From Granulicella sibirica (GTDB lineage: Bacteria; Acidobacteriota; Terriglobia; Terriglobales; Acidobacteriaceae): a stretch of DNA of 64,000 nucleotides. This document shows positions 8,390-51,275 of this stretch, in pieces (the first letter of the stretch is position 1; every line of letters begins with the position of its first letter). Under the pieces are notes generated by a model that saw only the letters and a list, made by a program, of their open reading frames with translations, was not told where the DNA came from and did no database searches. The stretch spans positions 1 through 64,000 of the forward strand of contig NZ_RDSM01000002.1 in NCBI RefSeq assembly GCF_004115155.1, given 5' to 3'. The position numbers and the translations under genes were made by a program.

Positions 8390-9892
8390 CTAATCAAATC
8401 GCAAACCGCTCGCAATGCGCTCCGCCAGCATAATCACTGTCAGGTTGATCGGAGGTGAGACTATCTCTGGAAACGATGAGGCGTCTGCGACAAAAATCCC
8501 AGATAGACCATGTATCTCCCCCTTAGAATCTGTAACCGACACGTTCGGATCAGCACCCATTGGTGCTGTCGAAGTGGCGTGAAAGTAGATACCGCCGCTT
8601 GCATTGATGGCGGAATCCATGTCGTCATCGCTTTGCACGAGAGCGCCGGGCGCTACCTCCTGTTCGATCCAGTCTGCGAGCGGTCTAGTCTCCGCAATTC
8701 GTCTGGCGATGCGAATGATCTCTCGCTGCCGTTCGCGGTCACTTGGGTCAGCGAGAAGGTTGTAATCAATCCATGGAGTCACCAAGGGATCAGGACTTTT
8801 CAAGCGAAGTAAGCCTGTTGATCTTGGAAGGACCACTGAAGCCCAAATGCGAAGTATGTGAATAGGGGTACCAGTGTGATCAACGTCGGGCTGAAAATAA
8901 GCAGTGAGTTGCAAGTCAAGCTCATCCCCCGTAGCATCTTTCGATTTAGTCCACAGTGCGACACTGCCGTTCGGGGGATCGACCTTCGCATCAGGTTTCA
9001 ACTTGTAGCCCAACGCGAACATCGGCTGCTCCTGCAATCGCGAGCCGACTGGAAGGTCGGCCACAACCTTGATCCCCAGTGTGCTGAGGTGCTCTTTCGG
9101 GCCTACCCCCGAGCGAAGGAGAATTGCTGGCGTTCCGAAGACGCCAGCGCACAGAACGATGCAACCCGCCTTGATAGTTTCTCCCCCTACCAGCACCACC
9201 TCGGAAGCTCGATTCTTCTCAAAGAACAATCGATCTACCTGGGCCATGCCCCGAATCGTGAGGTTTGTTCGGGCGCGCACATCTTCCTTGAGATAAGTCA
9301 TTCCAGCGTTGAATCGAACGTCATTCTCCATGTTCCGCGGTTCGAGACCAACACCCTCTTGATCAGAACCATTGAAATCATCGATCCATTTGTACCCGGC
9401 TTGTATCGCCGTATCGACGAATGCACGTGAGACTGGATTGACCTTGTCGAGTTGCGGCTGCCTTATCGGCCACGGACCGCTCCGTCCATGCCACATGTCA
9501 TCGCCGGAGGGAGTATTCTCAAGAGTCTTGTAGGTCTGTAGAGCATTCTCCCAAGTCCACTCAGTGAGACCATGCTCCTGCCATCGGCTAAAGTCGCTCG
9601 GTCGGGCCCGTCGAGAGATTGCACCATTGATCGCGGAGCCCCCACCCAAAAGCTTGCCTGCAAGTGCTGCAATCGTGTGTGGCCGCCCGGGAGCGCTCTG
9701 GTAGCCCCAGATAAATCGCGGTTCCGAAGTGAGCCCATTCATGTTGGTGAGCGGCTCGGGATAGGTATTCGGGAAGTAAGCCTCACCTGCCTCCAGCAGC
9801 AATACGCTACGCTGGCTTTCCTCGCTCAATCGACTTGCGAGAACACAACCGGCAGAACCCCCGCCAATGACGATCACGTCAAAACTATTCAT
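8390..9892 (-). CDS. GMC family FAD-dependent oxidoreductase
   Basis: A 500-residue glucose-methanol-choline oxidoreductase. The N-terminal FAD-binding site is VIVIGGGSAGCVLASRLSE (about residues 6-25), LLGGGSAINGAI is the first family signature, VLCAGVFGTPAILLRSGVG the second, and the C-terminal part holds FHATSTAPMG with the active-site His and the closing FAD contact. It is full length with no signal peptide. The family oxidises alcohols (choline, sugars, aromatic or aliphatic alcohols); the substrate is not predictable. It follows a broken DUF1772 gene and precedes a broken HxlR regulator on the same strand, apparently the surviving enzyme of a small operon. Confidence 0.92.
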   Translation of the reverse strand: MNSFDVIVIGGGSAGCVLASRLSEESQRSVLLLEAGEAYFPNTYPEPLTNMNGLTSEPRFIWGYQSAPGRPHTIAALAGKLLGGGSAINGAISRRARPSDFSRWQEHGLTEWTWENALQTYKTLENTPSGDDMWHGRSGPWPIRQPQLDKVNPVSRAFVDTAIQAGYKWIDDFNGSDQEGVGLEPRNMENDVRFNAGMTYLKEDVRARTNLTIRGMAQVDRLFFEKNRASEVVLVGGETIKAGCIVLCAGVFGTPAILLRSGVGPKEHLSTLGIKVVADLPVGSRLQEQPMFALGYKLKPDAKVDPPNGSVALWTKSKDATGDELDLQLTAYFQPDVDHTGTPIHILRIWASVVLPRSTGLLRLKSPDPLVTPWIDYNLLADPSDRERQREIIRIARRIAETRPLADWIEQEVAPGALVQSDDDMDSAINASGGIYFHATSTAPMGADPNVSVTDSKGEIHGLSGIFVADASSFPEIVSPPINLTVIMLAERIASGLRFD

Positions 9893-37480: not shown

Positions 37481-37567
37481 GTCGCAGACCGCAAGCATCC
37501 GTGCAGGATGACGGTCTTCCCCTTCTCGTTCCCCATTGAGGGACACAGGCACAATAGGAGATTCTTC

Positions 37568-40303
37568 ATGAAGAGGCCGAACCCATTCCGGTTCATTCTC
37601 GCAGTGCTGCTCGTTGGCATGGTGGCAGCTTTTGCCGCTGGTGCCATGTATGGGCAGAGTACCTCAGGCAACGTTGCTGGCATCGTCAAAGACCCTTCGG
37701 GGGCGACGGTCGCAGATGCATTGGTCCGCTTGGAAAACATTGTCAGCGGCTACTCGCGTGAGACAAAGACGAACGCTCAGGGTGCCTACAGCTTCCCGAA
37801 CCTTCCCTTCAACCCGTATCGGGTCATCGTGCGACGCGATGGATTCAATACGGCGAGCAGGAGTGTCGAGGTTTCAAACACGGTACCGGTTGCACTCTCC
37901 TTCACCCTGGCGATTGGAACCAGTACGGTCGTGACCGTCGAAGCCGGCCCGGAACTGGTTGAGAACGATCCGACCTTCCATGCCGATATCGACCGCTCCG
38001 TCATCGACCATCTGCCGATTGAAAGTCCTTCGAGCGCACTTAGTTCGATCGTCACACTTGCTTCTCCGGGCGTTGCGGCGGATTCGAACGGCCTGATGCA
38101 TGGGCTGGGAGATCACGCCGAAAACTCGTTCAACATCGACGGGCAACCGATCACGGATCAACAGAGCAAGGTCTTCTCGAACCAGGTCCCGGCAGCCGCG
38201 GTGCAGTCGCTGGAAGTGATTGACGGCGCGCCTCCGGCCGAGTTCGGAGATAAGACCTCCCTGGTCGTCAAAGTAACGACACGCTCTGGGCAAGGAGTAC
38301 ACCAGCCAACAGGGGATGTGCGGCTCTCTTATGGAAGCTTCGGATCAAGCTACCTCTCGTTCGATACCGCAGTTGGCGGAGAAAACTGGGGCAATTTTCT
38401 GGCGGTGGACGGATTACAAAGCGGCCGGTTTCTGGATGGTTCGGAGTTCTCGGTTTTCCACGACAAGGGCAACGAGGAGAACTTCTTCGACCGTGTGGAC
38501 TACAACTTCACCCGCAAGGACTCCATTCACTTCAACGCTCAGTACACGCACTCATGGTTTCAGACGCCGAACGACTATGAGAACGTCAACGTCGTCGATG
38601 GGAACGGTAACCCCGTTGGCAACACGGATCAACGGTCGAAGATTGGCACGATTAACTTCGCTCCTACCTACACGCACGTGATCAATGACAGTGGTGTCTT
38701 TAATCTTGGCTTCTATGTGCGGCGCGACGCGTACAACTACTATCCAAGCGCTAATCCGCTTGCGGATTTTGCTGTCGATCAGCAACAGGAGTCCGTCCAG
38801 CAGTTCCGTACTCTGACCAATGCCGGTGTGCATGCTGACGTTTCGTACGTTTTCGGCATGAACAACTTCAAGCTCGGAGCCCAGTATCAACAGACCTTCC
38901 TGCGCGAGAATGACTCGATCGGTATCGTCGATCCCACCATCACACCGGCTTGCGTGGACTCCTTCGGAAATCCCGCGAGTTGCACGGCACCCGGTGCCAC
39001 CGGGAACCCGAGTGTGAATCCGGTTCTATTGCCCTACGACCTGACCCAGGGAGGACAGTTCTACCTATGGCAGGGTCGCGCGGACGTGAAGCAGACCGCG
39101 CTCTACGGCGAAGATCAGATCAAAGCGGGCAACTGGTTGTTCAATCTCGGGATGCGCGGCGACTTCTACAACGGTCTTACCAAGCAGTACCAAGCCGAGC
39201 CACGTGCCGGTATCTCCTACAACATCAAGCCGAGTGGAACCGTTCTTCGTGTCTCTTATGCTCGAACCCAGGAAACTCCGTTCAACGAGAATCTGGTTCT
39301 TTCGTCCAAGGGCTGCGCGGACACCGTGCTCTACAACATCTTCGCGACCCTCTCGGATGGCTCCTGCCAAACGTCCACTCCTCAGGCAACTCCGTTCAAT
39401 CCCGGCTTCCGCAATGAGTTCCACGCTGGCTTTGGACAGGCGATCGGCAAACACCTTGCCTTCAACGGAGAGTACCTCTGGAAGTACACGCACAACGCGT
39501 ATGACTTCAGCGTGCTGGGTACGACCCCCATCACATTTCCTATCGAATGGCACAGCTCGAAGATCCCGGGCTACGCGATCAGTGCTACGTTGACGGATTT
39601 GCATGGCTTCAACGCACGCTTCAACGCCTCTTCCGTCGCGGCCCGCTTCTTCAATCCGCAACTTGGCGGCGTTGGCGCGACCCCGGTCAGTACGAATTCG
39701 GCTAGTGGAAATGTGCCGTTCCGTATTGACCACGACGAGAAATTCAATCAAACAACGCACCTCGAATACCATGTGCCGTTTCACAAGAGCCTTTGGGTTG
39801 GATTCAACTGGCGGTACGACTCCGGTCTGGTGGCCGGCGCGGCGCCGTGCTACAACCCAAATGGGGCGAACACGGACTGCGATCCGGCTACTGCAATCAC
39901 CTTGCCCAATGGTCAGCCGGGTATCGATCTTTCCGGGCTTTCGCCAGACCAGCAGTTTCAGGCTGGACTGACGTGCGACGGTGTGAAGGCCACGCCAACC
40001 TCTGGTTTCCAGGCTTGCGATGTTGCCGGCTTGAAATCGAAGCTGCTGACGATTCCTGCGCCCAACACCGAAGATGCGGATAAGAACCCGTCCCGCATTG
40101 CCCCTCGTCATGTCTTCGATATGGCGGTTGGCGACGACAACATCGTTCGCTTCGGGGAGCAAGGCCGTTATCGCTTCGGAGCTACGCTGACGGCTATTAA
40201 CCTCGCCAACAAGTATGCCCTCTACAACTTCCTCTCTACCTTCTCGGGAACCCATTACCTGACTCCGAGGACAGTAACGGGGGAGATCGCGTTTCACTTC
40301 TAA
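37568..40303 (+). CDS. TonB-dependent receptor with carboxypeptidase-regulatory-like domain (Oar type)
   Basis: A 911-residue outer-membrane receptor. A signal peptide (residues 1-33) precedes a carboxypeptidase-regulatory-like beta-sandwich (about 35-115: GNVAGIVKDPSGATVADALV), a plug (about 120-235: NIDGQPITDQQSKVFSNQVP) and a long 22-strand barrel ending TVTGEIAFHF. These receptors import large or chelated substrates using TonB energy and are abundant in Acidobacteriota. The ATG at 37568 follows AGGAG. Neighbours with His/Cys motifs and MerC suggest a metal ligand, but that is inferred. A hairpin lies 9 bases behind the stop. Confidence 0.93.
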   Translation: MKRPNPFRFILAVLLVGMVAAFAAGAMYGQSTSGNVAGIVKDPSGATVADALVRLENIVSGYSRETKTNAQGAYSFPNLPFNPYRVIVRRDGFNTASRSVEVSNTVPVALSFTLAIGTSTVVTVEAGPELVENDPTFHADIDRSVIDHLPIESPSSALSSIVTLASPGVAADSNGLMHGLGDHAENSFNIDGQPITDQQSKVFSNQVPAAAVQSLEVIDGAPPAEFGDKTSLVVKVTTRSGQGVHQPTGDVRLSYGSFGSSYLSFDTAVGGENWGNFLAVDGLQSGRFLDGSEFSVFHDKGNEENFFDRVDYNFTRKDSIHFNAQYTHSWFQTPNDYENVNVVDGNGNPVGNTDQRSKIGTINFAPTYTHVINDSGVFNLGFYVRRDAYNYYPSANPLADFAVDQQQESVQQFRTLTNAGVHADVSYVFGMNNFKLGAQYQQTFLRENDSIGIVDPTITPACVDSFGNPASCTAPGATGNPSVNPVLLPYDLTQGGQFYLWQGRADVKQTALYGEDQIKAGNWLFNLGMRGDFYNGLTKQYQAEPRAGISYNIKPSGTVLRVSYARTQETPFNENLVLSSKGCADTVLYNIFATLSDGSCQTSTPQATPFNPGFRNEFHAGFGQAIGKHLAFNGEYLWKYTHNAYDFSVLGTTPITFPIEWHSSKIPGYAISATLTDLHGFNARFNASSVAARFFNPQLGGVGATPVSTNSASGNVPFRIDHDEKFNQTTHLEYHVPFHKSLWVGFNWRYDSGLVAGAAPCYNPNGANTDCDPATAITLPNGQPGIDLSGLSPDQQFQAGLTCDGVKATPTSGFQACDVAGLKSKLLTIPAPNTEDADKNPSRIAPRHVFDMAVGDDNIVRFGEQGRYRFGATLTAINLANKYALYNFLSTFSGTHYLTPRTVTGEIAFHF

Positions 40304-40312
40304 TGCCTTCCG

Positions 40313-40345
40313 GTGGCTGCGACCTCACAGAGAGGACGCAGCCAC
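40313..40345 (+). terminator. Hairpin behind the TonB receptor gene
   Basis: GTGGCTGCG (40313-40321) and CGCAGCCAC (40337-40345) form a perfect 9-base stem with a 15-base loop and no T-run. It separates the receptor from the next two genes and could attenuate, rather than end, their transcription. Confidence 0.55.
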
Positions 40346-40357
40346 ACAGGAGCGTGT

Positions 40358-40603
40358 GTGGAACAGCAGAACGGCTTTCACAAGCTATTGTTTCTTCGAA
40401 AGCGCAACCGCCGTGCGCTGTTGAGACAAGTGCGCCGCGAGGCGGGGCTTGGCCGTCTGCGGCGAGATAACGCACGGCTGCAGGTCAGATTTTCTCGCAC
40501 AGACCGCGTTCTGCTTATCGCGCTGACTCTGCTCATGATTCTCGCCATGGCGATTGGCGCTTATTTGGGTCACAGCTTCAAGGACGTGATCCTCGACGAC
40601 TGA
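40358..40603 (+). CDS. Small single-pass membrane protein, unknown
   Basis: About 81 residues from a GTG at 40358 behind AGGAG (a GTG at 40313 would lie inside the hairpin). A strongly basic N-terminal half (RKRNRRALLRQVRREAGLGR) precedes one transmembrane helix (VLLIALTLLMILAMAIGAYL) and a short acidic end. The basic part should stay in the cytoplasm. It stands between the TonB receptor and the MerC gene and has no recognised family. Confidence 0.6.
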   Translation: MEQQNGFHKLLFLRKRNRRALLRQVRREAGLGRLRRDNARLQVRFSRTDRVLLIALTLLMILAMAIGAYLGHSFKDVILDD

Positions 40604-40636
40604 CGAGGGATTCTTGACGAACAGAAGGAGATTATT

Positions 40637-41071
40637 GTGAGTAGCGGAACGAATGCATCTTTCATCACGCCGGGATCCCGCTGGCCGGATGGCATTGGAC
40701 AATGTGCTTCTGCCCTGTGCGTTGTCCATTGCCTGCTGACGCCGGTATTGCTGTCGATGTCGGCGGTCGCCGCCCATTTTCTGCCGTCGGAAGAATCCAC
40801 GCACCGCTGCCTGGCGGTCGGGGTCGCGGCGATTGGTGCGCTTGCACTCGCGAACGGGTATCGCGTGCATGGCAGAAAACTGACGATTCTCATGATGTGC
40901 ATCGGCCTGAGCTTAGTCGCCACGGGAGCCTTTTATGGGGATCTCCTCCCAGGACATTGGGTTGAGGTGGGGGTAACTTTAACAGGCAGCCTGTTCATGA
41001 TCGCGTCCCACCGCATCAATCACACTTTCTGCAAAGACTGCGTCTGTGCAACGGCGAACGAGCACCCCTAG
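40637..41071 (+). CDS. MerC-domain membrane protein
   Basis: A 144-residue MerC-type protein with four hydrophobic helices. Helix 1 holds ASALCVVHCLLTP, whose CxxxxHC pattern is the family's metal site, and the C-terminus has CKDCVCATANEHP, extra Cys near the end. MerC proteins carry mercuric or other soft metals through the inner membrane; many chromosomal ones are of unknown metal. The GTG start at 40637 has a good AAGGAG site. It is the last gene of the metal-type cluster. Confidence 0.82.
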   Translation: MSSGTNASFITPGSRWPDGIGQCASALCVVHCLLTPVLLSMSAVAAHFLPSEESTHRCLAVGVAAIGALALANGYRVHGRKLTILMMCIGLSLVATGAFYGDLLPGHWVEVGVTLTGSLFMIASHRINHTFCKDCVCATANEHP

Positions 41072-41459
41072 CGAGCATCCGAAATCACAATGACTTCCGC
41101 TCGAAGGGTCACTTCAGGTTCTGAGAGCGTGTTGCCAAAGCCGCGGCAGATGCGAAGCGAAAGGAAGCGATGACCGCATCCTCGTCGTGCAGGGGGTGAC
41201 GGTCGCATGCATGCTTGTCGACTGCTCGCTCGCGTTGCACGTTGCTATCAAGGGCACGCTTCATCAACAAGCTGTTCGAAGGCTTCACGATCAATGCTTG
41301 ATCGACAAACACAAGGCCGGACAGTGCCAACCGGAGGTAACGCAACAGAGCCGCCAACGCCCGCTAAACCTTTATCGTTTGCGCGAGGGCCCATCCACCC
41401 GAATGGCCGCGCCCATTTCGGTGGATGTTCGTCGGTTCTGACTCGTGTAGCATTTCGTC
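41072..41459. other. Intergenic; one doubtful minus-strand frame
   Basis: A minus-strand frame of 82 codons at 41109-41357 has one hydrophobic stretch (LRLALSGLVFVDQALIV) but no motif or good start site. Otherwise it should hold the promoter of the sigma-54 activator. Confidence 0.35.
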
Positions 41460-42914
41460 ATGCTGAGGACGTCCGGCTTGCAGGCACGAGGTTCCAGGAC
41501 ACGAGACTTCGTACCGGTACACGGACCGACGTCGACAGAGGCCGCGGAGCTACCCGTCGCCTGTGTCATCACGGCAAATGCAGCTCTTCGCGATGAGGTC
41601 GCAGACGAACTCGGTCCGTGGGTTCGCGTTGTCCCCGGAGAGAGTCTCCGAGGGGTTGCTGGATGGACGCAAGAGGTAGGAGCTGCGGCCGTCCTCATGG
41701 ATTTGGAACTCTGCGATCTAGACCCACGGATGGGCGTTGCTGTGGTCGAGCAATTGCGGCATCTGAGTGACAGGCTGGTGCTGATTGCCATAGGCAGCTC
41801 GCGCGTGCGCGGGGTCTCCACCCAATACGCCGCGCCAGGCGTCGACGCATACTTGCCGCGACCGTTGAATGTCTCCGAACTGCGCCAGACTCTCATTGAA
41901 CTGTTGCGTACTCGTGGCCACAACTGGGACCAACCCGCGCAGCGAGAGGCGGCAGAGGACGGCGGGTTCCAGGACTTCATCGGGGCGAGTGAGCCGATGC
42001 GGCTCGTCTATGAGGCGATCCGGCAGGTGGCGAACAGCAATATTACCGTTCTTATCCGGGGAGAGAGTGGCACGGGAAAGGAACTCGTGGGGCGGGCGCT
42101 TGTCGCCCTGAGCCGACGAGCGAACAAACCTTTTATTCGGATCAACTGCGCGGCATTGCCTGAGAATCTGATCGAGTCGGAACTCTTCGGCAGTGAGAAG
42201 GGTGCCTTTACCGGGGCGACCGAGTCGCGGCCCGGACAGATCGAGCTGGCGGACCAGGGCACGCTCTTCCTCGACGAAATTGCGACGCTTGCCCTACCGC
42301 TGCAGACGAAGCTGTTGCGCGTTCTGGAAGATCGCCAGGTGCAGCGGCTCGGTGGACGAACGCTGCGCAAGATTGATTTTCGTCTGGTCTGCGCGACGCA
42401 CGAGCCGCTCGAAGAGCTGGTCGCGCAAGGCCGGTTTCGCGAAGACCTCTTCTATCGCATTCATGTCGTGCCCATTCATCTGCCACCGTTGCGCGAGCGG
42501 GCCGATGACATCTCACGCCTTGCCGAATTCTTCCTCCGCGTTCACTGCGAAGCGAACGGAGTGCCGGTCAAGCGTCTGGCCGAAGCTGCCAGCCAGGTCT
42601 TTCGTGAGCATCGATGGCCGGGCAATGTGCGCGAATTGGAGAATCTAATTCAGAGACTGGTGATCACGGTTCGACCGGACGAGATCGGCGCAACCCACCT
42701 GCCGCCCGGCATGATGGCAGGTGGTTTGCCCGTGCGGAGGACTGAGCTGCTGCCGGAGTCTGGAACAGACTTCGATAACGAAATAGAAAGCCTGGAAATC
42801 TCGCTGCTAACAGAAGCTCTTCACAGGGCAAAGGGAAGCAAATCCACTGCCGCCCGATTGCTGCGGTTGGATGTGCAACGTCTCAAATATCTATGTCGAA
42901 AATACTCTTTGTAA
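41460..42914 (+). CDS. Sigma-54-dependent response regulator / enhancer-binding protein
   Basis: A 484-residue NtrC-type activator. The N-terminal receiver-like domain (about 30-150) keeps the Asp in LMDLELCD but has Arg in place of the conserved Lys (YLPRPLN), so phosphorylation is doubtful. The AAA+ domain (about 170-400) has Walker A GESGTGKE (201-208), the sigma-54 contact GAFTGA (248-253), Walker B LFLDE (269-273) and WPGNVREL. The C-terminal Fis-type HTH reads KSTAARLLRLDVQRLKYLCR. A terminator follows. A near-ideal sigma-54 promoter 170 bases downstream, in front of a short peptide gene, is its likely target. Confidence 0.94.
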   Translation: MLRTSGLQARGSRTRDFVPVHGPTSTEAAELPVACVITANAALRDEVADELGPWVRVVPGESLRGVAGWTQEVGAAAVLMDLELCDLDPRMGVAVVEQLRHLSDRLVLIAIGSSRVRGVSTQYAAPGVDAYLPRPLNVSELRQTLIELLRTRGHNWDQPAQREAAEDGGFQDFIGASEPMRLVYEAIRQVANSNITVLIRGESGTGKELVGRALVALSRRANKPFIRINCAALPENLIESELFGSEKGAFTGATESRPGQIELADQGTLFLDEIATLALPLQTKLLRVLEDRQVQRLGGRTLRKIDFRLVCATHEPLEELVAQGRFREDLFYRIHVVPIHLPPLRERADDISRLAEFFLRVHCEANGVPVKRLAEAASQVFREHRWPGNVRELENLIQRLVITVRPDEIGATHLPPGMMAGGLPVRRTELLPESGTDFDNEIESLEISLLTEALHRAKGSKSTAARLLRLDVQRLKYLCRKYSL

Positions 42915-42930
42915 AGCGGTGGCGTTATTT

Positions 42931-42955
42931 TTTCACCTGTGGGTGAAATTTTTTT
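42931..42955 (+). terminator. Rho-independent terminator
   Basis: TTTCACC and GGTGAAA form a 7-base stem with a TGTG loop, followed by seven T. It lies 17 bases behind the activator stop and separates that gene from the sigma-54 promoter downstream. Confidence 0.85.
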
Positions 42956-43015
42956 ATCTAGGCCATCACGGTGGAATAACGCTGCTCTGTCCCCTGTGCA
43001 AGCGGTTGTTCAGAA

Positions 43016-43029
43016 GTAAAAGCGCTTAC
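43016..43029. promoter_or_regulatory. Candidate upstream activator site
   Basis: GTAAAAGCGCTTAC is an imperfect palindrome with a perfect AAGCGCTT core. It lies about 65 bases upstream of the -24 element, a normal distance for an enhancer-binding protein. The assignment is inferred from position and symmetry. Confidence 0.4.
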
Positions 43030-43080
43030 ATAATCTCAACATTCCAGGCAAGTTATCCGGTTATGTGTCGGTTAGATGGT

Positions 43081-43097
43081 TTGGCGCGCCAGTTGCT
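43081..43097 (+). promoter_or_regulatory. Sigma-54 (-24/-12) promoter
   Basis: TTGGCGCGCCAGTTGCT matches the consensus YTGGCACG-N4-TTGCW with one change in the -24 block. The GG (43083-43084) and GC (43095-43096) pairs are exactly 12 bases apart. The transcript should start near 43108, leaving about 38 bases before the ATG of the 42-codon gene. Confidence 0.8.
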
Positions 43098-43145
43098 TTT
43101 CCAAAGATGTAGTCGCAGTTCAATCAATCATCCGAGGGTTCCACC

Positions 43146-43274
43146 ATGGCAATCGCGAAGAAGTCCATCGTTTCAAGCTCGAAGTCCGCCGCTGTCTCCA
43201 CCACCACACCCAGCGTCAAGCTGACGCCCGCCGTTGCGATGCAGATTGCTGCTCCGCGTCCTTCCTTTTTCTAA
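43146..43274 (+). CDS. Small basic peptide of 42 residues, unknown (candidate exported peptide)
   Basis: A short gene with an ATG at 43146 behind GAGGG at a spacing of 7 and a TAA at 43274. The peptide begins MAIAKKSIVSSSKS and ends AMQIAAPRPSFF. It has no Asp or Glu, four Lys and one Arg, nine Ser, no Cys, and ends in two Phe. Third codon positions are mostly G or C, like real genes here. It has no classical signal peptide. The only promoter is the sigma-54 element at 43081; a 12-base-stem hairpin follows. It faces the operon of a PqqD-like/M50/HlyD fusion and two adaptors. A substrate or signal peptide handled by that operon is the leading idea, but unproven. Confidence 0.68.
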   Translation: MAIAKKSIVSSSKSAAVSTTTPSVKLTPAVAMQIAAPRPSFF

Positions 43275-43289
43275 ACATCTCGCATTACA

Positions 43290-43323
43290 AACTGCGTCGA
43301 TTGCTCTGGCGATCGACGCAGTT
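43290..43323 (+). terminator. 12-base-stem hairpin behind the peptide gene
   Basis: AACTGCGTCGAT (43290-43301) and ATCGACGCAGTT (43312-43323) pair perfectly around a 10-base loop. The tail is not T-rich. It begins 15 bases behind the peptide stop and may end or stabilise its short transcript, and may also act on the convergent operon. Confidence 0.7.
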
Positions 43324-43451
43324 CCCTCCGCTATGGGCAGCCTGCTTTGCGGTCTGCCCTGAGGCTCGTTGGAGCACGATCGTTGTACGACTCTTTCGTC
43401 CCGCCATCATCCCGAAGGAGCAAGCCTACTCAGAAGCTCATATTCGGGCCT

Positions 43452-45602
43452 TTACCAGACGTGAGCGCAGAAGAGGTTCGACCCCACGTTCCATGCCCGA
43501 GCGAAGAGACTGCGGCGAGCCCCGAAGAGAATAACGTCGCCAGACATGCCAAGCTCCAGCCGCCCGGTCGGATCATCGAGGCGGATGCGGGCGTAGTAAT
43601 ACGTTGGGGCCGCGACGCCCTTCAAGCCGGTATTCGTTGCGAGACCGGGTGGTAATGCGACGGCATCGCCCTCGAGGGCAGGCAGCCTGGCATGCAGTAC
43701 ACCAAATTGCCCCGGCTCGATCAAGGCAACCTCGGCGTTCGGCTGGATGCGATTGAGGGCCGCGGCGGGGATGAAGATACGTGCCACGCGCGAGCCGTAT
43801 TCCGCCACGGTCAAGAGCGGCTCGCCTGAACCCACACTCCGATCCGTCAAGGCTGCAGGGTCCCGCGTGAGAATGACACCATCGGCTGGTGCGCGCACGA
43901 GAAGCGAGGCCTGCGTTCTGCCGGCCAGAGCTTCGGAGCGCAACGCGGCGTCGCGCCCGGAGGCTGCCGATCCCAGGCTGCTATGCGAAAGCTGCGCGTT
44001 GAAGGTTGCAAATCGCGCCGCGTCGCTTTGGGCAGTGGCAGAGGAACGCAGGGAATCGACTGTGACGCTCCTGACCTGCAAGAGCGGTTCTCCCATGCGA
44101 ACCTCCTCGCCTTCATCCACGAAGACCGCGCTGACGGTGCCTTCTTCCGGGGCATGAAGCACCGAGGAGTGCTCCGGCTCGATGACGAACAAGCCGCTTT
44201 CGCGGTCGCGCCGAATGGGCAAAAGAACCAGCGCGAGCAGGATAAGAAGGGAAGCCGTCAGGGCCGGCGTCATCCGCCCTGTGCTTACGTGTTTCGACCA
44301 GACCCGTTTGAGCACCCCGCGCAGCGCGGCGAGGCGAGAATGAAAGACCTTGTAAGCCAGCAACACAGCGGGGATGAGGGCAAACTCGCCAAGCCAGTGC
44401 GATCCTATGTTGTAGGTCAGGCGGACTACGGTCGAAAGGAGTACGTAACTGTAAAGACCGGATAGGAATGCGTAAGCAACGAAAAAGGGCACATGCCCTC
44501 GAGCAACGACTGGAAGCTCCGCGTCCAGACCAAGCAGACCGCGCTGCACCCATCCGGAGAGAAATGCTGTCGAGCGCTCTTTCAGGTCGGGAATCCCAAT
44601 CCACTCTGTCATCAGGTAGTAGCCATCGAACTTGGCCAACGGATTGAGATTGAGGACAATCGCAGCGACTCCAGTCATCAGGATGACCTCGTAGCAGAAA
44701 TTGTGGCCCCATTGTCCGGGTTGCGTATTCAGCCAGACGATCATGGAACTTCCGCAAAAGATGAGCTCGATCCAGATGCCGGCAATGATCGCGTAGGAAC
44801 GATGGCGTCTCGAGGAACACAACCAGATCTCGGTGATATCAACGAAGAATGCCGGGGTGAGATACAGCAGCAGGAAACCCATCTTGTGGACCTGGCCGCC
44901 GAAATGCTTGCAGGTGAGGCCGTGAGCCATCTCATGGAAGAAGCCGATGACAAAAAAGAGCAGCCAGAACTGTGCGAGCTCCGCGAAGCTCTTGCTGGTG
45001 AACGTGTAGAAGAGGACCAGGTCCGGGGCGAAAAAATCCCACCTCGTCACAAAGATGAATGCTTCTACGAAGAAAAGCAGCAGGGCAAGAAGAGTGAATC
45101 CCGAACTGTAGAGGAAGCTGCCGATCTTACCGTCGAGCCAGGTGAGGAAGCCGTCCGGGTCGATGACCGAGAAGCTGATCTGGGCTAGAGCGTTCTTTGT
45201 CGGGCGTCGGGAGAGGCGATTGCGCGGAGCATTCAGCACATCGTTCAGGGCAAAGGTCCGCTCTTGCGCGGATCGATACCAGAAATCGCTCTCCTCAAGA
45301 CTTTCCGCAAGCGTCCGAACCTCCTCTACTGCGACGGTCAAGGAGGTCTGCTGGCTGAAGAGGTCCGCGACCTCATCGTACGTGCGGACGCCGTCGAACA
45401 ACTGCAGCAGTGTCCACTGCACGGGCGGAAACCTGAAGAAGTTGCCACGGCCCCGATGGAAGACGCCGACGACCCGTTCCCCCCCAAGCATCTCCTCGCG
45501 CACCACCAACTCCGGGTCCAGGCATGGCGGACGGCTGATACGTAGTCTTTCCGGGGAAATATCAAGCATCGCGATATTACGCGCCGCCACCAGATTCATC
45601 AT
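43452..45602 (-). CDS. PqqD-like / M50 metalloprotease / HlyD fusion membrane protein
   Basis: A 716-residue protein with three parts. Residues about 28-110 resemble a PqqD-type peptide-recognition domain (RFPPVQWTLLQLFDGVRTYD). Residues about 160-465 are a polytopic site-2-type protease with zinc motif HEMAHG at 223-228 and the second motif NLNPLAKFDGYY at 318-329. Residues about 480-700 form a biotinyl-lipoyl/HlyD adaptor (APEEGTVSAVFVDEGEEVRM; LVRAPADGVILTRDP). YydH-type M50 proteins act on ribosomal peptides; this protein adds a periplasmic adaptor. Its start overlaps the lipoprotein adaptor stop by four bases. It converges on the small peptide gene. Confidence 0.86.
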   Translation of the reverse strand: MMNLVAARNIAMLDISPERLRISRPPCLDPELVVREEMLGGERVVGVFHRGRGNFFRFPPVQWTLLQLFDGVRTYDEVADLFSQQTSLTVAVEEVRTLAESLEESDFWYRSAQERTFALNDVLNAPRNRLSRRPTKNALAQISFSVIDPDGFLTWLDGKIGSFLYSSGFTLLALLLFFVEAFIFVTRWDFFAPDLVLFYTFTSKSFAELAQFWLLFFVIGFFHEMAHGLTCKHFGGQVHKMGFLLLYLTPAFFVDITEIWLCSSRRHRSYAIIAGIWIELIFCGSSMIVWLNTQPGQWGHNFCYEVILMTGVAAIVLNLNPLAKFDGYYLMTEWIGIPDLKERSTAFLSGWVQRGLLGLDAELPVVARGHVPFFVAYAFLSGLYSYVLLSTVVRLTYNIGSHWLGEFALIPAVLLAYKVFHSRLAALRGVLKRVWSKHVSTGRMTPALTASLLILLALVLLPIRRDRESGLFVIEPEHSSVLHAPEEGTVSAVFVDEGEEVRMGEPLLQVRSVTVDSLRSSATAQSDAARFATFNAQLSHSSLGSAASGRDAALRSEALAGRTQASLLVRAPADGVILTRDPAALTDRSVGSGEPLLTVAEYGSRVARIFIPAAALNRIQPNAEVALIEPGQFGVLHARLPALEGDAVALPPGLATNTGLKGVAAPTYYYARIRLDDPTGRLELGMSGDVILFGARRSLFARAWNVGSNLFCAHVW

Positions 45603-46543
45603 GGCGCTCTCGTCTTTGCGGCAGCGGAACTCCCGAGCGTCACCTGCATGGACATGCCCGGTTTCAGCAGGACAGACGCATGCGCGATGGAGCCAATCAC
45701 CTGCACGCTGTCGCTGGCCGGATCGACGACCGGACTGACGCGGAGGATGCGCGCCGCCTGATGCAGGTCCGGATATCCGGGAGTTGTGAGATCGAGCGGA
45801 GCACCCACCGAGTATGCCGCCATGGCGGATTCCGGAACGGTAAACAGGATGCGCAGCGGAGCCTCTGCGGTCACCCAGAAGAGCACATCGCCCGTCTTCA
45901 CCTCCTGTGCGAGCCTGAGGGACTGTCGACCTACGACCCCATCAAACGGCGCGACGATGTGGCACTGGTCCAGTTGCAGCTCCGCGTATTTCAGGTCAGC
46001 CTCCGCAGCCAGCGCATCGGCGCGATAGCGTGCAATCTCGGCCGTCACTTCCTCGAGCCTGAACCTGACGTGCTCCCATGCCTCTTGGCTTACGATGTTC
46101 ACCGCCCGTAGCTCGTCGGAGCGGCGCAGGTCCGCGGCATCCATCTTCTCTTCAGCCTGCAATTCCAGCACCCTGGCCCGCACCGACGCCAACTTGGCAT
46201 TTTGCGACTCGACAGTCGCCTGCAGCACGCGACTGTCGAGCGACGCCAGCAACTGCCCGCGCCTCACGTGGTCCCCAATCTCCACCGCGATGCCGGCGAC
46301 GCGGCCATCGCGCTCCGCGGCAACATCCGATTGCTGCTCGGCGACCAGCGGTCCTGTCGTTTTGAATGGCGCCGCCTCGGTCACGCCGGCCTCCGTCACA
46401 GTAGAAGGCATCGGACGCTCCGGTAATGCGGACGTGGATATTACGGCCGCCGCCGCGACGGGGTGGGACTCACATCCACTCAGCAGCGCTGGCGCCAAGA
46501 AAGCGACTGCAAGGACTAAAGAGGAACGACGAGAAAGAAACAT
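45599..46543 (-). CDS. RND/HlyD-type periplasmic adaptor lipoprotein
   Basis: A 314-residue membrane fusion protein. The lipobox LAPALLSGC at about residues 17-25 indicates an inner-membrane-anchored lipoprotein. The lipoyl halves (AERDGRVAGIAVEIGDHVRR; CHIVAPFDGVVGRQ) flank an alpha-hairpin, followed by a beta-barrel (PLRILFTVPESAMAAYSVGA). The ATG at 46543, 5 bases behind the previous stop and with a GGTGAGG site, is preferred to the frame start at 46639. No RND pump gene is beside it: its partner appears to be the M50/HlyD protein with which it overlaps by ATGA. Confidence 0.88.
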   Translation of the reverse strand: MFLSRRSSLVLAVAFLAPALLSGCESHPVAAAAVISTSALPERPMPSTVTEAGVTEAAPFKTTGPLVAEQQSDVAAERDGRVAGIAVEIGDHVRRGQLLASLDSRVLQATVESQNAKLASVRARVLELQAEEKMDAADLRRSDELRAVNIVSQEAWEHVRFRLEEVTAEIARYRADALAAEADLKYAELQLDQCHIVAPFDGVVGRQSLRLAQEVKTGDVLFWVTAEAPLRILFTVPESAMAAYSVGAPLDLTTPGYPDLHQAARILRVSPVVDPASDSVQVIGSIAHASVLLKPGMSMQVTLGSSAAAKTRAP

Positions 46544-46548
46544 AGGCC

Positions 46549-48006
46549 TCACCAACCAAACCAATTCCACAACGTTTGCCAGATCCACAACGCGGGCCGC
46601 CGCAGCAGCACGTACCCTGCGGGCCGGTATCCAACCCATACCTTTGCCTGTCCCGTCATTCCCGCGCGCAGGACAGCATCGGGATTAGGCAGCGGAACCC
46701 GTGCGGCAAAGGTGCGTTCTCCATCGCCGGCCTGCGCCTGCGCACTGACGAGCCCGACGCGGCCGCGCCATAACCTCTGCGGATAGCTGTCGAGCTTGAT
46801 GACCGCTCCTTCACCGGAGCGGAGTTGCGACACATTGGCTTGGGGAATGGCGATATCAACCACTGCCGCCGAGAGGTCGAGCACCTCGGCAAAGCTATCG
46901 CCCGCAGCAAGGTGCTTGCCGGCAGCATTCTCAATGGAGGGCGTCATGACGACGCCGGTGATGGGCGAGCGAAGCTGTGCGCTCTGTATGCGGTCGCGGG
47001 CGCGATCTGCTTCCGCTCGAAGATACTCCACCTGGGCACGATCCGCTCCGGCCTGCGCCGCGCCACGGGCGAGATCCGCCTGCATGGTCAGCATCGCATT
47101 ATGGAAGCGGGCTTCGGCTGCGGCGAGATCGGTGCGCCACTGGAGGTCATTCATCGACGCGATCACCTGCCCTGCTTCGACGTGCTGTCCTTCTCGCGCG
47201 AAAACAGTGGTGATGTTGCCGTCGACGGGAGCGGCCAGCGTCACGATATGCTGCGCGCCGACCGTGGCCTCACCCGTCAATCGCATCGGCAGCGGACAGC
47301 AGGCAAGGAAAAGCGCTCCCGCGATTGCTCCAGCCGCAAAGCCGGTACGCCGATTTCTGCTGGTGCGCAGGAGCGCCCGCTTTCCCCTGACCAGAAATTC
47401 GAGCAGGCCGATCATTGGCAACTCGCGATAGCTGATGGCATGGCGGAGCGCGACGGTCGCCTGCCCACCGAGGATCTGGATGATCTCGGTATGTGCGAGG
47501 CTGAAAGACTCCGGGTCGGCACTTTCGTACAAAAGCAGCCCGACGCGCCCATCGTCATCTCGGAGCGGAAAGGCAAGAAGCCCGCGGTAACCGGTCGCTG
47601 TACAGTATGCGGCCACCATATCGGGAAGGTCTCCCTCAGCACCCCTTTCGTGCTGCCGAAAATGGAGAACCTCGGCTTTGTCGGAGAGCCAGCCGATGAG
47701 TTCGGAGAGTTCTTTGACCTTTGTATCCCCATACGGAAGGCTGGTCCGTCCCGACACTGCCTTCAACCGCAGCTTGCCGCGATGGTCCAGTGAGAGCGAG
47801 CACCGCTCGAAGGGCAAAACCCTCTGCTGGCTGTTGACGATAATCTGCGACACTCGATCGAGGCGCAGCGTTGACGTCATCTGCGTACTGACCTGCATCA
47901 ACTCCTCGAGAACCTCGGCTTTTCGCCCGGCGACCCTATGACCAGCACGCCCCAGGACATCGCTGACGGTCTTTGGAGAGGGTGTGGAAGAGCTCTTCCT
48001 CTTCAT
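46549..48006 (-). CDS. GAF-HlyD membrane adaptor protein
   Basis: 485 residues in the open frame. A GAF domain (about 35-195: QIIVNSQQRVLPFERCSLSL; GLLAFPLRDDDGRVGLLLYE) precedes one transmembrane helix (about 222-245: AAGAIAGALFLACCPLPM), then a HlyD/lipoyl adaptor (LAAPVDGNITTVFAREGQHV; QLRSPITGVVMTP) and a barrel. A cytoplasmic sensor joined to a periplasmic adaptor is unusual. The ATG at 48006 has no ribosome site and lies inside the preceding GAF gene. The text around TVSDVLGRAGHRVAG continues that GAF protein by a +1 shift, so both frames may be one gene. Confidence 0.82.
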   Translation of the reverse strand: MKRKSSSTPSPKTVSDVLGRAGHRVAGRKAEVLEELMQVSTQMTSTLRLDRVSQIIVNSQQRVLPFERCSLSLDHRGKLRLKAVSGRTSLPYGDTKVKELSELIGWLSDKAEVLHFRQHERGAEGDLPDMVAAYCTATGYRGLLAFPLRDDDGRVGLLLYESADPESFSLAHTEIIQILGGQATVALRHAISYRELPMIGLLEFLVRGKRALLRTSRNRRTGFAAGAIAGALFLACCPLPMRLTGEATVGAQHIVTLAAPVDGNITTVFAREGQHVEAGQVIASMNDLQWRTDLAAAEARFHNAMLTMQADLARGAAQAGADRAQVEYLRAEADRARDRIQSAQLRSPITGVVMTPSIENAAGKHLAAGDSFAEVLDLSAAVVDIAIPQANVSQLRSGEGAVIKLDSYPQRLWRGRVGLVSAQAQAGDGERTFAARVPLPNPDAVLRAGMTGQAKVWVGYRPAGYVLLRRPALWIWQTLWNWFGW

Positions 48007-48556
48007 GCCGGAAGGGTTCCCCGGAGATCGGATTTACCGCCTCCAGGACACCGATCTCGGCGTCGTCTTGAATGAGCGGCACAAGCATTGCCGTGAAGAT
48101 CGGCGGACTACCTTCCCGATGACGTCCCTGCAGCCGTGGGTCGGCTGGATCGGTAATCCGTAAGGAAACGCCAGTCTCCGCCATATCAACCACGTACCCC
48201 GTGCCCGGCGCTTGCTGCATGCCGGTGCTCACGGAGGAGTCGACGCCGGCCGATGACACCACGGTCAAAACATCGTTGTCGAAGAGCCAGACATGTACAG
48301 CCTGGCACTCCAGCGTGAGTCTCACTTTCTCGGGAATTAGCTGCAAGAGTGCGTCGAGCTCAAGCGGAACGTGCAGGGAGGCTTCGAAGTTGTAAAGTAA
48401 TGTCATCCGATGCAACGCGCGGCGCAACGCCAACGTTTCTTTTTCGCGTGATGCCTGATCAGCGATGCCTGCTTGTTCTTCCGGGACTTCCGCGTAGAGG
48501 AGCGGGGTGTCCCCATTTCGGCCATTGGCCCAGGAAGTGACAGAGTTGCCCATCAT
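47936..48556 (-). CDS. GAF-domain protein (possible first half of a GAF-GAF-HlyD protein)
   Basis: About 206 residues with one GAF domain (ALHRMTLLYNFEASLHVPLE; CQAVHVWLFDNDVLTVVSSA; AMLVPLIQDDAEIGVLEAVN) ending at EEEELFHTLSK. After that Lys the frame reads DRQRCPGACWS and stops, whereas the +1 frame continues smoothly as TVSDVLG into the GAF-HlyD protein. The overlap is 71 bases. Start is uncertain: ATG at 48556 or TTG at 48604. It is the first gene of the operon; the region to 48773 is shared with a divergent wHTH/PD40 gene. Confidence 0.72.
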   Translation of the reverse strand: MMGNSVTSWANGRNGDTPLLYAEVPEEQAGIADQASREKETLALRRALHRMTLLYNFEASLHVPLELDALLQLIPEKVRLTLECQAVHVWLFDNDVLTVVSSAGVDSSVSTGMQQAPGTGYVVDMAETGVSLRITDPADPRLQGRHREGSPPIFTAMLVPLIQDDAEIGVLEAVNPISGEPFRHEEEELFHTLSKDRQRCPGACWS

Positions 48557-48772
48557 GTGGCAGTGTGACCCCAGTTCGTTTCGCTTGTCGACAGACCGCC
48601 CCAACCACAGGAGGTCTCTCTGAAAACACTTGGAGCGATCCTAGAGACATCCATCCGCAATGCCACCAAAATTCGGCCTAAAATCGACATAACCGTCTAA
48701 GCCATTTATTGCCAGTTATTTACCTTCGAATATGAGACTGACGGAGCACACTTTGAACTCTGAACACCTTCC

Positions 48773-51193
48773 ATGGCTATGACGGTTAATTTGAAAAAGG
48801 TTCGCTTCGGGTCCTTTCAATTCGACCCACGGCGACAAGAGTTGCGGAAACACGGCTACAGGATTCGAATGTCCGCGTCACAGATTCGGCTATTGAACCT
48901 GTTCATAGAGCGTCCCGGCGACTTGATCAGCCGGGAAGACATCAGCGCGCGGCTCTGGGTCGACACCCGCAACATAGACGTCGCCACAGGTATCAACACG
49001 GCGATCAATCGCCTTCGAAGCCATCTTGATGATTCGCCGGAAGCGCCCGCCTACATCGAAACCGTCATCGGCCTCGGCTATCGATTCATCGCAGTCCTCG
49101 AAGACGATGCTGCACCGGAACCTGCTCCCCACAGCGTGGCGCCAGCAGGTGGCGATCTCTTGGTAGCGGGCTCTCACACCTTATTGATGGTGGCGGAACC
49201 TTCAGGAGGTGACAGCCTCGACCTTCGAATCCCGAAGAGCGAGATCGCCGAGGCCATGAGCCAGCAGACCGAAGTTTTCTTCCCGGCAAACGCGTCTGCC
49301 AAGGCTTTGCCTCTACCAGAGTGGATCGGTTCGGCGCCTGCAGTTACAAAGGCTTTCGCTCGAAGCCGCCAATGGAAGTTGATTCTCGCCGTGGCTGGCA
49401 TTCTCTTGATTGGCGTTGCAGGCTGGGTTGCTTTCACGCGATTCACCACATGGCGGCCGATGGCGCAGTCACCTAGCGCGGACATTCCCTCCAGCAGGAA
49501 CGGGGCTGGGCTGAATCCGGTCACATCGCAGGGAAAAGCCGACCCGGTTTCATCCGCCGCAGTATCGCCGGACGGAACAAGAGTGGCTTACGGCAATCAT
49601 GCCGGCGTCCTGGTCCACAGCTTCGGAGGCAGCGATGAGTTGCTTGCCTCCCGGCCCGCTTTCGAGGTGAGCCGCATCTCGTGGTCTCCGGATAGCAAAC
49701 AACTCCTTGTAAGTGGAACCGATGGATCGACAGGTCGGCATCAGGTCTGGCGCGTGCCACTGGTTGGAAGCTATCCCCGTCTCATGATCTCCGATGCCGA
49801 TCTCGCGACGTTTTCGGCGGATGGTATTTCGATCGCTTACACTCGCGAGCACGACACGGAAGTTTGGGTCGCTGCTGCGGACGGCCGGAACCCACGCAAA
49901 GTGGAAAGCGATGCCACCGGAAGTTTTCCATACCTCCTCTGGGCATTCTCGGGAGACCATCTGCTCCTCGATCACATCCATGCCGCACCGCCATCTGGTC
50001 TCGGGCTGACGTCGACGACTGCTTCGCTGCCACCTCATGGCGAAGAGTTCTATGAATCGGTCGACTCGCAATCAGGAGCCCTGTTGGACCGGGAGGCGGA
50101 TACCACCTTCCGCTCTGGCTACGTTCTCCGAGATGGGAGTGTCTACTTTGCCGTCGCTGATGCGGTGAGCCCAGTCGCCGGCCAGACACGCCTGATGAGG
50201 GTTCTGACCGATCCCAAGACGGGACGCTTCTTGGAGAAGCCAAAGGTTGCGGACAGCTTTGGAGGGTACGGCAGGAGCCTCTCGGCATCTGCCGACGGTA
50301 AGAGGCTCGCACTCGTGCTGCAGCGATCGTTTGTCGACACCTTTGTTGCAGACGTGCGCCGTCCCGGCCCAACGCTTTCAGGAGTCAGGGAGCTCTCGAA
50401 CAAGAACGTCGAGAGTTATCCGCATGCTTGGACTCCAGACGGGTCAGCGGTACTGATGGAAGACGCATCGCTTGGCAGATGGGCCATCTTCGCTCACCCT
50501 CTCGACGGATCACCAGCCTATCTGATTGCCAAAACGGATGACTCGGCTGTCTTGCCGCAACTGACACCAGACTCACGCTGGGTCATGTTTCTTCAGTTCA
50601 GTCCAAACGCGCCAACCGCGAATGCCATCTTACGAGCTCCTGCGATCGGTGGCGTTGCGGAAATCGTCCCGACCACAGGGAAACTGGGAGATTTCAGTTG
50701 CTCCGTGCAGCCCGGTGGAACCTGCGTGGTCCGAGAGTCGCTAGGCAACTCGGAATTGGTGTACTACGCCCTGGACCCGCTGAAAGGCATGGGACAGGAA
50801 CTCGCGCGCACACCATGGCACGCGATTCTGCTTGGTGACTGGGGTGTTTCTCCGGACGGATCCACGGTCGCAGTCGTCGATCACGATACGGTCCATCCAG
50901 GCGTAAAACTTCTTCGCTTGGGTACCTCTCCTTTGCAGGCCCGCGATATTCCCCTGGCGGGATTTGGCACACCTCTTGGAGCGGGGTGGGCTGCCGATGG
51001 CCGTTCGCTGTATGTGCAATGCAGGACAGATGATGGCTTCCAATTGCTCGACTTGGACCTGCGTGGAGCAGCAAAGGTCCTGCGCAAGAGTACGGTGCCT
51101 CTCTGGGCCATCCCCTCACGCGATGGCAAAAAAATTGCTTTCCCAGGTTACTCAACGAGCGACAACGTGTGGACTCAGGAACTCTCTCCCTAG
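48773..51193 (+). CDS. CadC-like membrane wHTH protein with PD40 propeller
   Basis: An 806-residue protein. An OmpR/CadC-type winged helix (about 5-112: FGSFQFDPRRQELRKHGYRI; SREDISARLWVDTR; IETVIGLGYRFIAV) is followed by a linker, a transmembrane helix (about 201-223: LILAVAGILLIGVAGWVAF) and a periplasmic TolB/WD40-like propeller with repeated S-PDG-R motifs (AVSPDGTRVAYG, SWSPDSKQLLVSG, TPDSRWVMFLQF, GVSPDGSTVAVVD). This layout, common in Acidobacteriota, suggests a one-component regulator sensing the periplasm. It diverges from the GAF/HlyD/M50 operon and may control it. Confidence 0.9.
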   Translation: MAMTVNLKKVRFGSFQFDPRRQELRKHGYRIRMSASQIRLLNLFIERPGDLISREDISARLWVDTRNIDVATGINTAINRLRSHLDDSPEAPAYIETVIGLGYRFIAVLEDDAAPEPAPHSVAPAGGDLLVAGSHTLLMVAEPSGGDSLDLRIPKSEIAEAMSQQTEVFFPANASAKALPLPEWIGSAPAVTKAFARSRQWKLILAVAGILLIGVAGWVAFTRFTTWRPMAQSPSADIPSSRNGAGLNPVTSQGKADPVSSAAVSPDGTRVAYGNHAGVLVHSFGGSDELLASRPAFEVSRISWSPDSKQLLVSGTDGSTGRHQVWRVPLVGSYPRLMISDADLATFSADGISIAYTREHDTEVWVAAADGRNPRKVESDATGSFPYLLWAFSGDHLLLDHIHAAPPSGLGLTSTTASLPPHGEEFYESVDSQSGALLDREADTTFRSGYVLRDGSVYFAVADAVSPVAGQTRLMRVLTDPKTGRFLEKPKVADSFGGYGRSLSASADGKRLALVLQRSFVDTFVADVRRPGPTLSGVRELSNKNVESYPHAWTPDGSAVLMEDASLGRWAIFAHPLDGSPAYLIAKTDDSAVLPQLTPDSRWVMFLQFSPNAPTANAILRAPAIGGVAEIVPTTGKLGDFSCSVQPGGTCVVRESLGNSELVYYALDPLKGMGQELARTPWHAILLGDWGVSPDGSTVAVVDHDTVHPGVKLLRLGTSPLQARDIPLAGFGTPLGAGWAADGRSLYVQCRTDDGFQLLDLDLRGAAKVLRKSTVPLWAIPSRDGKKIAFPGYSTSDNVWTQELSP

Positions 51194-51275
51194 TGCTCCG
51201 TCGCGGTAAGTAATGTTCTGTGCCGCGGATGCCCCGCTGGGCGTAACTCTCCGTGGCTGGCTTGTGAAACCGTTG

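Follow-up and report, generated by a model that had tools for sequence, protein, structure and literature searches.

A conserved sigma-54-linked locus of leader-bearing peptides and adaptor-type envelope proteins in Acidobacteriota, with a predicted role in peptide export

We describe a locus of Granulicella sibirica (GCF_004115155.1) in which a sigma-54 activator, a -24/-12 promoter, a gene for a short precursor peptide and a convergent operon encoding three envelope proteins with adaptor parts make up a single conserved unit. It occupies positions 41460-48604 of contig NZ_RDSM01000002.1, of which the first 64,000 nucleotides (positions 1-64,000; hereafter the window) were analysed. Based on sequence and predicted structure, we propose that the locus is probably a sigma-54-controlled, leader-guided system for peptide processing and export that works without a linked ABC pump. 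The proposal draws on synteny, the promoter, co-occurrence of peptide and protease, a constant leader in front of a variable repeat core, and the predicted folds of the adaptors and of a recognition element (RRE) typical of ribosomally synthesised and post-translationally modified peptides (RiPPs); it draws further on related adaptor sets in Alphaproteobacteria and on the abundance of OEP/TolC domains in the genome. The open-licence literature, the only literature searched, yielded no paper on such a locus.

A conserved unit of activator, promoter, precursor gene and convergent operon

The activator of the window (41460-42914, + strand; 484 aa; Sigma54_activat, E 8.6e-68) combines a degenerate receiver-like N-terminus, an AAA+ domain in which GAFTGA can be read and a Fis-type helix-turn-helix. 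Downstream lies the -24/-12 box TGGCGCGCCAGTTGCT (43082-43097, +), which has the maximal promoter score and is the sole strict match in the 64 kb. The ribosome site GAGGG (43134-43138, +) is situated 7 nt 5' of the ATG of a 42-codon gene (43146-43274, +), whose product, beginning MAIAKKSIVS, was assigned as a precursor peptide through a leader model and its orthologues. A perfect 15-bp hairpin (43290-43323, +; -29 kcal/mol, z -4.2, 71 nt folded) follows the peptide stop, between the convergent genes. An earlier sequence-only reading had named the activator, the near-consensus promoter and the short gene with its ribosome site and hairpin, all of which were borne out. On the opposite strand, and convergent to the peptide gene, are encoded a 716-aa fusion of an RRE (PqqD-like) domain, an M50 site-2 protease and a HlyD-type part (43452-45602, -), a lipoprotein adaptor of the RND_mfp family (45599-46543, -) and a GAF-HlyD protein. 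That reading's facing operon stands as regards the fusion and the lipoprotein, but not as regards an intact GAF-HlyD gene, which is broken here. At the gene level, a sigma-54 promoter, its activator and RpoN (one match in the genome) are all present.

A scan of named genomes with a single sequence as query gave no match; an alignment scan succeeded, and the best 80 of 231 loci were kept, all of them Acidobacteriota by title, including Granulicella aggregans and Edaphobacter lichenicola. These divide into a near clade (the window plus 63 loci, 64 in all) and a sister clade of 17, giving 81 clustered loci. Locus counts rest on this named-genome set alone, which overlaps the family-genome regions used below (many of the contigs are the same) and contains some near-copies (L099/L100, L079/L087, L091/L098). 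In 53 of the 64 near-clade loci, a short gene lies just past the M50 end and faces the M50 operon, and in the remaining 11 the contig runs out there after no more than 323 nt. The family-genome regions agree on its place and orientation. The activator is found upstream of the peptide gene on the same strand in 51 of the 53; of the two exceptions, L135 lacks the space for one, and in L080 none is found over 4 kb.

The promoter is conserved as well. When the 53 first peptides were compared with 1,590 control ATG starts, a box score of at least 14 was reached by 41 of the 53 versus 0.4% of controls, and a score of at least 13 by 51 versus 4.4%; the distance from the 3' end of the box to the ATG is 43-78 nt in 49 of those 51. 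Peptide candidates in L147 and L152 proved to be internal starts of the activator gene and were dropped from this comparison. A short gene and promoter retained beside other such operons, the check that the sequence-only reading had called for, were thereby found, which supports its idea that the operon would process or export the peptide.

Peptide and protease also occur together. Of 300 family genomes, 60 contain the M50 protein, and an alignment search detected it in 49 of 297 genomes of the phylum. A leader model of 24 residues, built from 18 rows including the window leader and run over the same 300 family genomes with a cut-off of E up to 8e-4, matched 52 of them, namely 49 of the 60 with an M50 protein versus 3 of the 240 without (Fisher p 1e-41). 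In the window genome its one match is the window peptide (E 2.8e-5, the peptide itself being among the 18 rows). The three leader-only genomes have the leader next to a sigma-54 activator at the edge of a contig, and one of them shows an M50 fragment. Leader and M50 share a contig in 44 of the 49 genomes; in three others (G060, G120, G136) they are split by contig ends, G120 and G136 holding activator-precursor pairs. The last two depart from tight linkage: G024 carries an activator and a precursor whose contig shows no M50 closer than 9 kb, and G146 has an orphan precursor (L238:5963-6178, -) with its own -24/-12 box, TGGCATGCATGTTGCT. Neither activator nor M50 was found near this orphan, over about 6 kb in one direction and 12 kb in the other, and the activator-M50 fragment of G146 contains a gap without a leader gene. 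No locus surrounds a weak match in G126 (E 0.0078). Among the 11 M50 genomes below the leader cut-off, G109 was just missed (E 0.0013), a peptide is visible in G257, G278, G214 and G226, weak matches stand at the expected place in G025 and G091, G112, G116 and G273 end at contig edges, and G137 holds M50 fragments only.

That the short open reading frame (ORF) has arisen by chance might be argued from its mere 42 codons and from its lack of a family match. We reject this and regard it as having practically no probability, given the specificity of the leader, the synteny in 53 of 64 loci, the promoter scores and the co-occurrence with M50.

Gene clusters that recur widely across the 81 loci comprise the adaptor/M50 proteins (80 loci), the activator (60) and a STAS anti-anti-sigma-like gene (32). 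The next clusters span 5-7 loci, and among these only an RsbW-like ATPase (HATPase_c_2), present in five, was identified by Pfam. Examples of the STAS and RsbW-like genes lie at L105:5179-5520 (-) and L104:9325-9789 (+).

Leaders, repeat cores and a predicted leader-binding protease

Near-clade peptides share the leader consensus M[AS]IxKKSLI[SN]..., often continued by KKA(I/L)xA, which is conserved while the cores are hypervariable among lineages, as expected of the leader-bearing precursors of RiPPs. Significant tandem repeats occupy 45 of the 53 cores, in units of about 3-10 residues that differ by lineage (LAKSTN, LSGGKG, AADAGSM, NVASG, IKPA, SRVQ, GHSPKV and others) and reach about 20 copies. 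Counting exact units, 20 LSGGKG units are written in 15 DNA versions with zero amino-acid change, and 15 AADAGSM units in 13 versions. This constancy is strong in the best arrays and not in all, since the whole post-leader regions of the 30 most repetitive arrays gave 697 identical, 663 synonymous and 579 non-synonymous codon pairs. Net core charge is positive in 51 of 53 peptides, and cysteine occurs in one. Matches of the peptides to library models (EntB/EntC, histone H1-like, TigB, antifreeze, DUF963 and others) were judged to reflect low complexity, the DUF963 match in L036 being just above its cut-off.

Several loci carry two or three consecutive precursor genes (L039:8183-8344 and 8475-8615; also L140, L145, L147 and L150), which suggests several products per system. 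The L039/L080 locus has a second precursor and no activator.

In the sister clade the same place is mostly taken by Lys-rich peptides of 22-35 residues resembling MAKxKPVKKGKKLGSVKPL... (type 2), sometimes two or three in tandem and including the repeat forms LQRAS and LQRGAGV. A strict type-2 pattern, which was built after these peptides had been seen and whose counts are therefore descriptive, matched in 12 of the 17 loci, with 19 matches in 21 kb of gap sequence and 0 in 444 kb elsewhere. Candidates in L146, L148, L150 and L151 were recognised by eye only, and neither pattern nor eye found one in L142. A tree of 56 M50 proteins parts near-clade and sister-clade loci with full support; leader groups were labelled by clade, so that the tree separates sets of loci rather than leader types independently. 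Five more distant loci comprise four with a third N-terminus (VTIKLTExQRxQIKxATG-like), two of them with long repeats of LASKSA and SAKSLRA, and a fifth that is type-2-like.

The M50 fusion has the features of a site-2 protease, with both an HExxH zinc motif (residues 223-227; 44922-44936, -) and an NPxxxxDG motif, here NPLxKxDGYY with Asp326 (44616-44645, -). H223, E224 and H227, as well as N320, P321, L322, D326, G327 and Y328, are invariant in 56 sequences, and Pfam M50 is matched with E up to 0.1 in all 56 (19.1 bits in the window protein, cut-off 27.2). Its C-terminal part (residues about 463-706; 43485-44216, -) is HlyD/MacA-like and shows an adaptor fold in the structure search. This part swamped the search with the whole model, and the N-terminus was therefore modelled and searched separately. 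In the resulting model the N-terminal domain (residues about 23-112; 45267-45536, -) has the winged-helix, PqqD-like fold of an RRE domain, and its fold neighbours include solved RRE-leader complexes, with RiPP proteins, TigE among them, the closest. Pfam PqqD was matched in 10 of the 56 relatives, the window protein not being one of them; this and the predicted fold support the PqqD-like domain of the sequence-only reading. We conclude that the N-terminus folds like a leader-binding-type RRE domain and is predicted to bind the leader. PqqD-like domains bind precursor peptides, and YydH-type M50 proteases act on small peptides.

These same folds raise the alternative that the product is a true RiPP, with a core modified by enzymes encoded elsewhere and a locus confined to leader handling and export. 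The kinship of the RRE fold with RiPP proteins such as TigE speaks for it, as does the best NCBIfam model for the fusion, a daptide protease. However, beyond STAS no further gene occurs in more than 7 of the 81 neighbourhoods, and the repeat units have no single common modifiable residue, with cysteine all but absent; we consider this alternative unlikely. An ordinary RiPP cluster with linked modifying enzymes was rejected on the grounds that only the adaptor/M50 proteins, the activator and STAS recur widely in the 81 loci clustered. No tailoring gene was recognised near the locus, the clusters of 5-7 loci being mostly without assigned identity.

Proposed export mechanism and state of the window copy

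In the proposed export system, the activator would turn on transcription of the precursor, whose leader would be held by the cytoplasmic RRE domain while the M50 part severs it from the core. The three HlyD-type parts, those of the M50 fusion, the GAF protein and the lipoprotein, could then assemble, with a general TolC, into a conduit across the envelope through which the core would pass out. The genome contains 41 matches to OEP/TolC domains. Gating may be provided by the cytoplasmic GAF domains and, where linked, by the STAS and RsbW-like proteins. No ABC, radical SAM or YcaO protein was seen among the 20 window ORFs scanned, as the sequence-only reading had it, and no ABC protein or C39 peptidase among the ten ORFs of 37508-54170 scanned.

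The same parts could instead constitute a regulatory circuit without export, in which the peptide is an intracellular or membrane-side ligand of the M50 and GAF-HlyD proteins, acting as sensors that feed back on the activator. Site-2 proteases and GAF domains are often regulatory, and some of the loci have linked STAS and HATPase_c_2 genes. Such a circuit would nevertheless sit poorly with three adaptor parts in one locus, with the long repeat arrays and with related adaptor sets that adjoin TolC and giant proteins, and we judge it quite improbable.

As for the exported product, we tentatively suggest, at somewhat less than even confidence, that the released repeat peptide has an extracellular role as a signal or weapon specific to its lineage. 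A core that changes behind a constant leader fits such a role better than housekeeping; a structural role is possible too. In the latter case the repeats would serve as a matrix, coat or adhesive polymer, which is in keeping with the tandem arrays and with the giant proteins beside related adaptor sets, surface-like by annotation. On the other hand, the repeat period varies and there is no common unit, and most type-2 precursors have 22-35 residues and lack repeats; we give a purely structural function only a low probability.

If export is the correct reading, the locus would define a widespread family of precursor peptides with tandem, lineage-specific cores in a phylum that is abundant in soil and poorly understood, and would connect the kind of leader recognition seen in RiPP systems straight to export across the envelope, with no ABC pump linked to it. 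Leader, box and envelope-protein trio can serve as clear search keys.

The window copy itself looks degenerate, with a broken GAF-HlyD gene and a peptide without significant repeats (repeat test p 0.115). The ORFs at 47936-48604 (-; 5' part, with GAF) and 46549-48006 (-; 3' part, with GAF, a transmembrane segment and HlyD) correspond to successive stretches of what in relatives is a single protein of about 800 aa, and the matches switch frame at about 47972/47973. The first 146-213 residues of the protein in four relatives have no counterpart in the window, and Pfam finds two to three GAF stretches plus HlyD in three relatives. An error in sequencing might account for the frame change, though not for the absent start. 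The window copy could be a decaying relic that no longer works, whatever intact systems do. The damage to GAF-HlyD favours this, as does the contrast between the plain 42-aa window peptide and the seven LAKSTN units in its sister locus L076. Conversely, the M50 and lipoprotein genes are open with catalytic residues retained, the promoter has the maximal score, the frame change could be a sequencing error, and seven other near-clade peptides are likewise without significant repeats. We regard a relic as a serious possibility, though not quite the likelier state; the window system may perhaps not be fully working any more.

The ORF of the lipoprotein adaptor is open to 46639, and its start is probably 46543 (MFLSRR...LLSGC). 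Among its relatives, a signal-like stretch and cysteine were recognised in 20 of 20 by eye and in 11 of 20 by a strict pattern. Neighbouring genes encode a MerC-like membrane protein 5' of the activator (40637-41071, +), an OmpR-type DNA-binding domain fused to a WD40/TolB-like propeller (48773-51193, +), which adjoins the broken operon end, and a TPR-CHAT protein of 964 aa (51276-54170, -).

Comparison with known systems

The locus is outside the tested defining features, as read from sequence, of daptides, epipeptides and ABC exporters. Daptide systems have an RRE fused N-terminally to a site-2 protease, and their precursors carry an ELExMEAP motif and a C-terminal Thr (PMC10036551). The likeness thus lies in an RRE-intramembrane protease fusion beside a short leader-bearing precursor; the differences are the extra HlyD part, the MxIxKKSLI leaders in place of ELExMEAP, and a C-terminal Thr in only one of 53 peptides. 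Membership was rejected on these precursor features and on the score of the best NCBIfam model, the daptide protease NF041824 (154.4 bits, cut-off 300). The YydH/LiaK epipeptide protease (NF058609) is likewise an M50 protease linked to a small peptide; this assignment was rejected at 42.1 bits against a cut-off of 225, and the 20 window ORFs scanned include neither a radical SAM nor an ABC protein.

In type I secretion and peptidase-containing ABC exporters, leader removal is coupled to a HlyD-type adaptor. Our locus shares the combination of such an adaptor with predicted leader handling, but its protease is M50, with no ABC or C39 among the locus ORFs scanned. An ABC exporter was rejected for this absence from the ten ORFs, and genes not listed above occur in at most 7 of the 81 loci. 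The multi-repeat RiPP system TigB/TigE also has a precursor with tandem repeats, and the TigE RRE is a fold neighbour of the window N-terminus, whereas no radical SAM enzyme was seen here. TigB model matches on two peptides, far below the cut-off (26.8 and 21.4, cut-off 70), were set aside as due to small-residue repeats.

A related set comes from Alphaproteobacteria, where M50 relatives lie on plasmids with 23-29% identity in the best 20 rows and form part of an apparent export cluster that the open-licence papers searched do not describe. In Pseudosulfitobacter (L209), Pfam recognises PqqD, M50 and HlyD within a single protein, a neighbouring protein with GAF and HlyD, and a small RND-type adaptor, the same trio as in the window, together with a SecA-like ATPase, which is also found in Alisedimentitalea; Methylosinus and Thalassospira have a similar adaptor set by annotation. 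Twelve loci were inspected (L208-L212, L230 and L232 among them), a small sample that was not viewed blind. In five, those of Methylosinus, Pseudosulfitobacter, Azospirillum brasilense, Thalassospira and Niveispirillum, an adjoining giant protein carries an LEPR-like motif within its first 60 or so residues. An LEPR-motif protein lies 5-10 kb off in Tistrella and Azospirillum B510, and none was found in Alisedimentitalea, Magnetospirillum and Phyllobacterium, or within 20 kb in Indioceanicola and Ensifer. Five of the sets have annotated TolC genes next to them, namely those of Methylosinus, A. brasilense, Magnetospirillum, Thalassospira and Niveispirillum. The giant proteins and adjoining TolC genes suggest, from these 12 loci, that the adaptor set is an export device reading an N-terminal address. 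In the acidobacterial loci, a pattern that misses the IEPR variant, LEPR.[LMF], gave one match in 1.13 Mb and none in the first 120 residues of any frame above 1000 aa.

The two settings thus share the Pfam trio and an N-terminal motif on a neighbouring protein, and differ in that the alphaproteobacterial neighbour is giant, TolC or SecA-like genes are adjacent and no sigma-54/peptide pair was noticed. A common ABC-free secretion route is possible, although we hold it doubtful: the RRE-M50-HlyD, GAF-HlyD and lipoprotein adaptor proteins would recognise and remove a leader and pass the cargo through the envelope. In Alphaproteobacteria this cargo would be giant LEPR-motif proteins, and in Acidobacteriota hypervariable repeat peptides that would act as multi-copy, lineage-specific signals or weapons. 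The comparison may offer a handle on how those giant proteins leave the cell.

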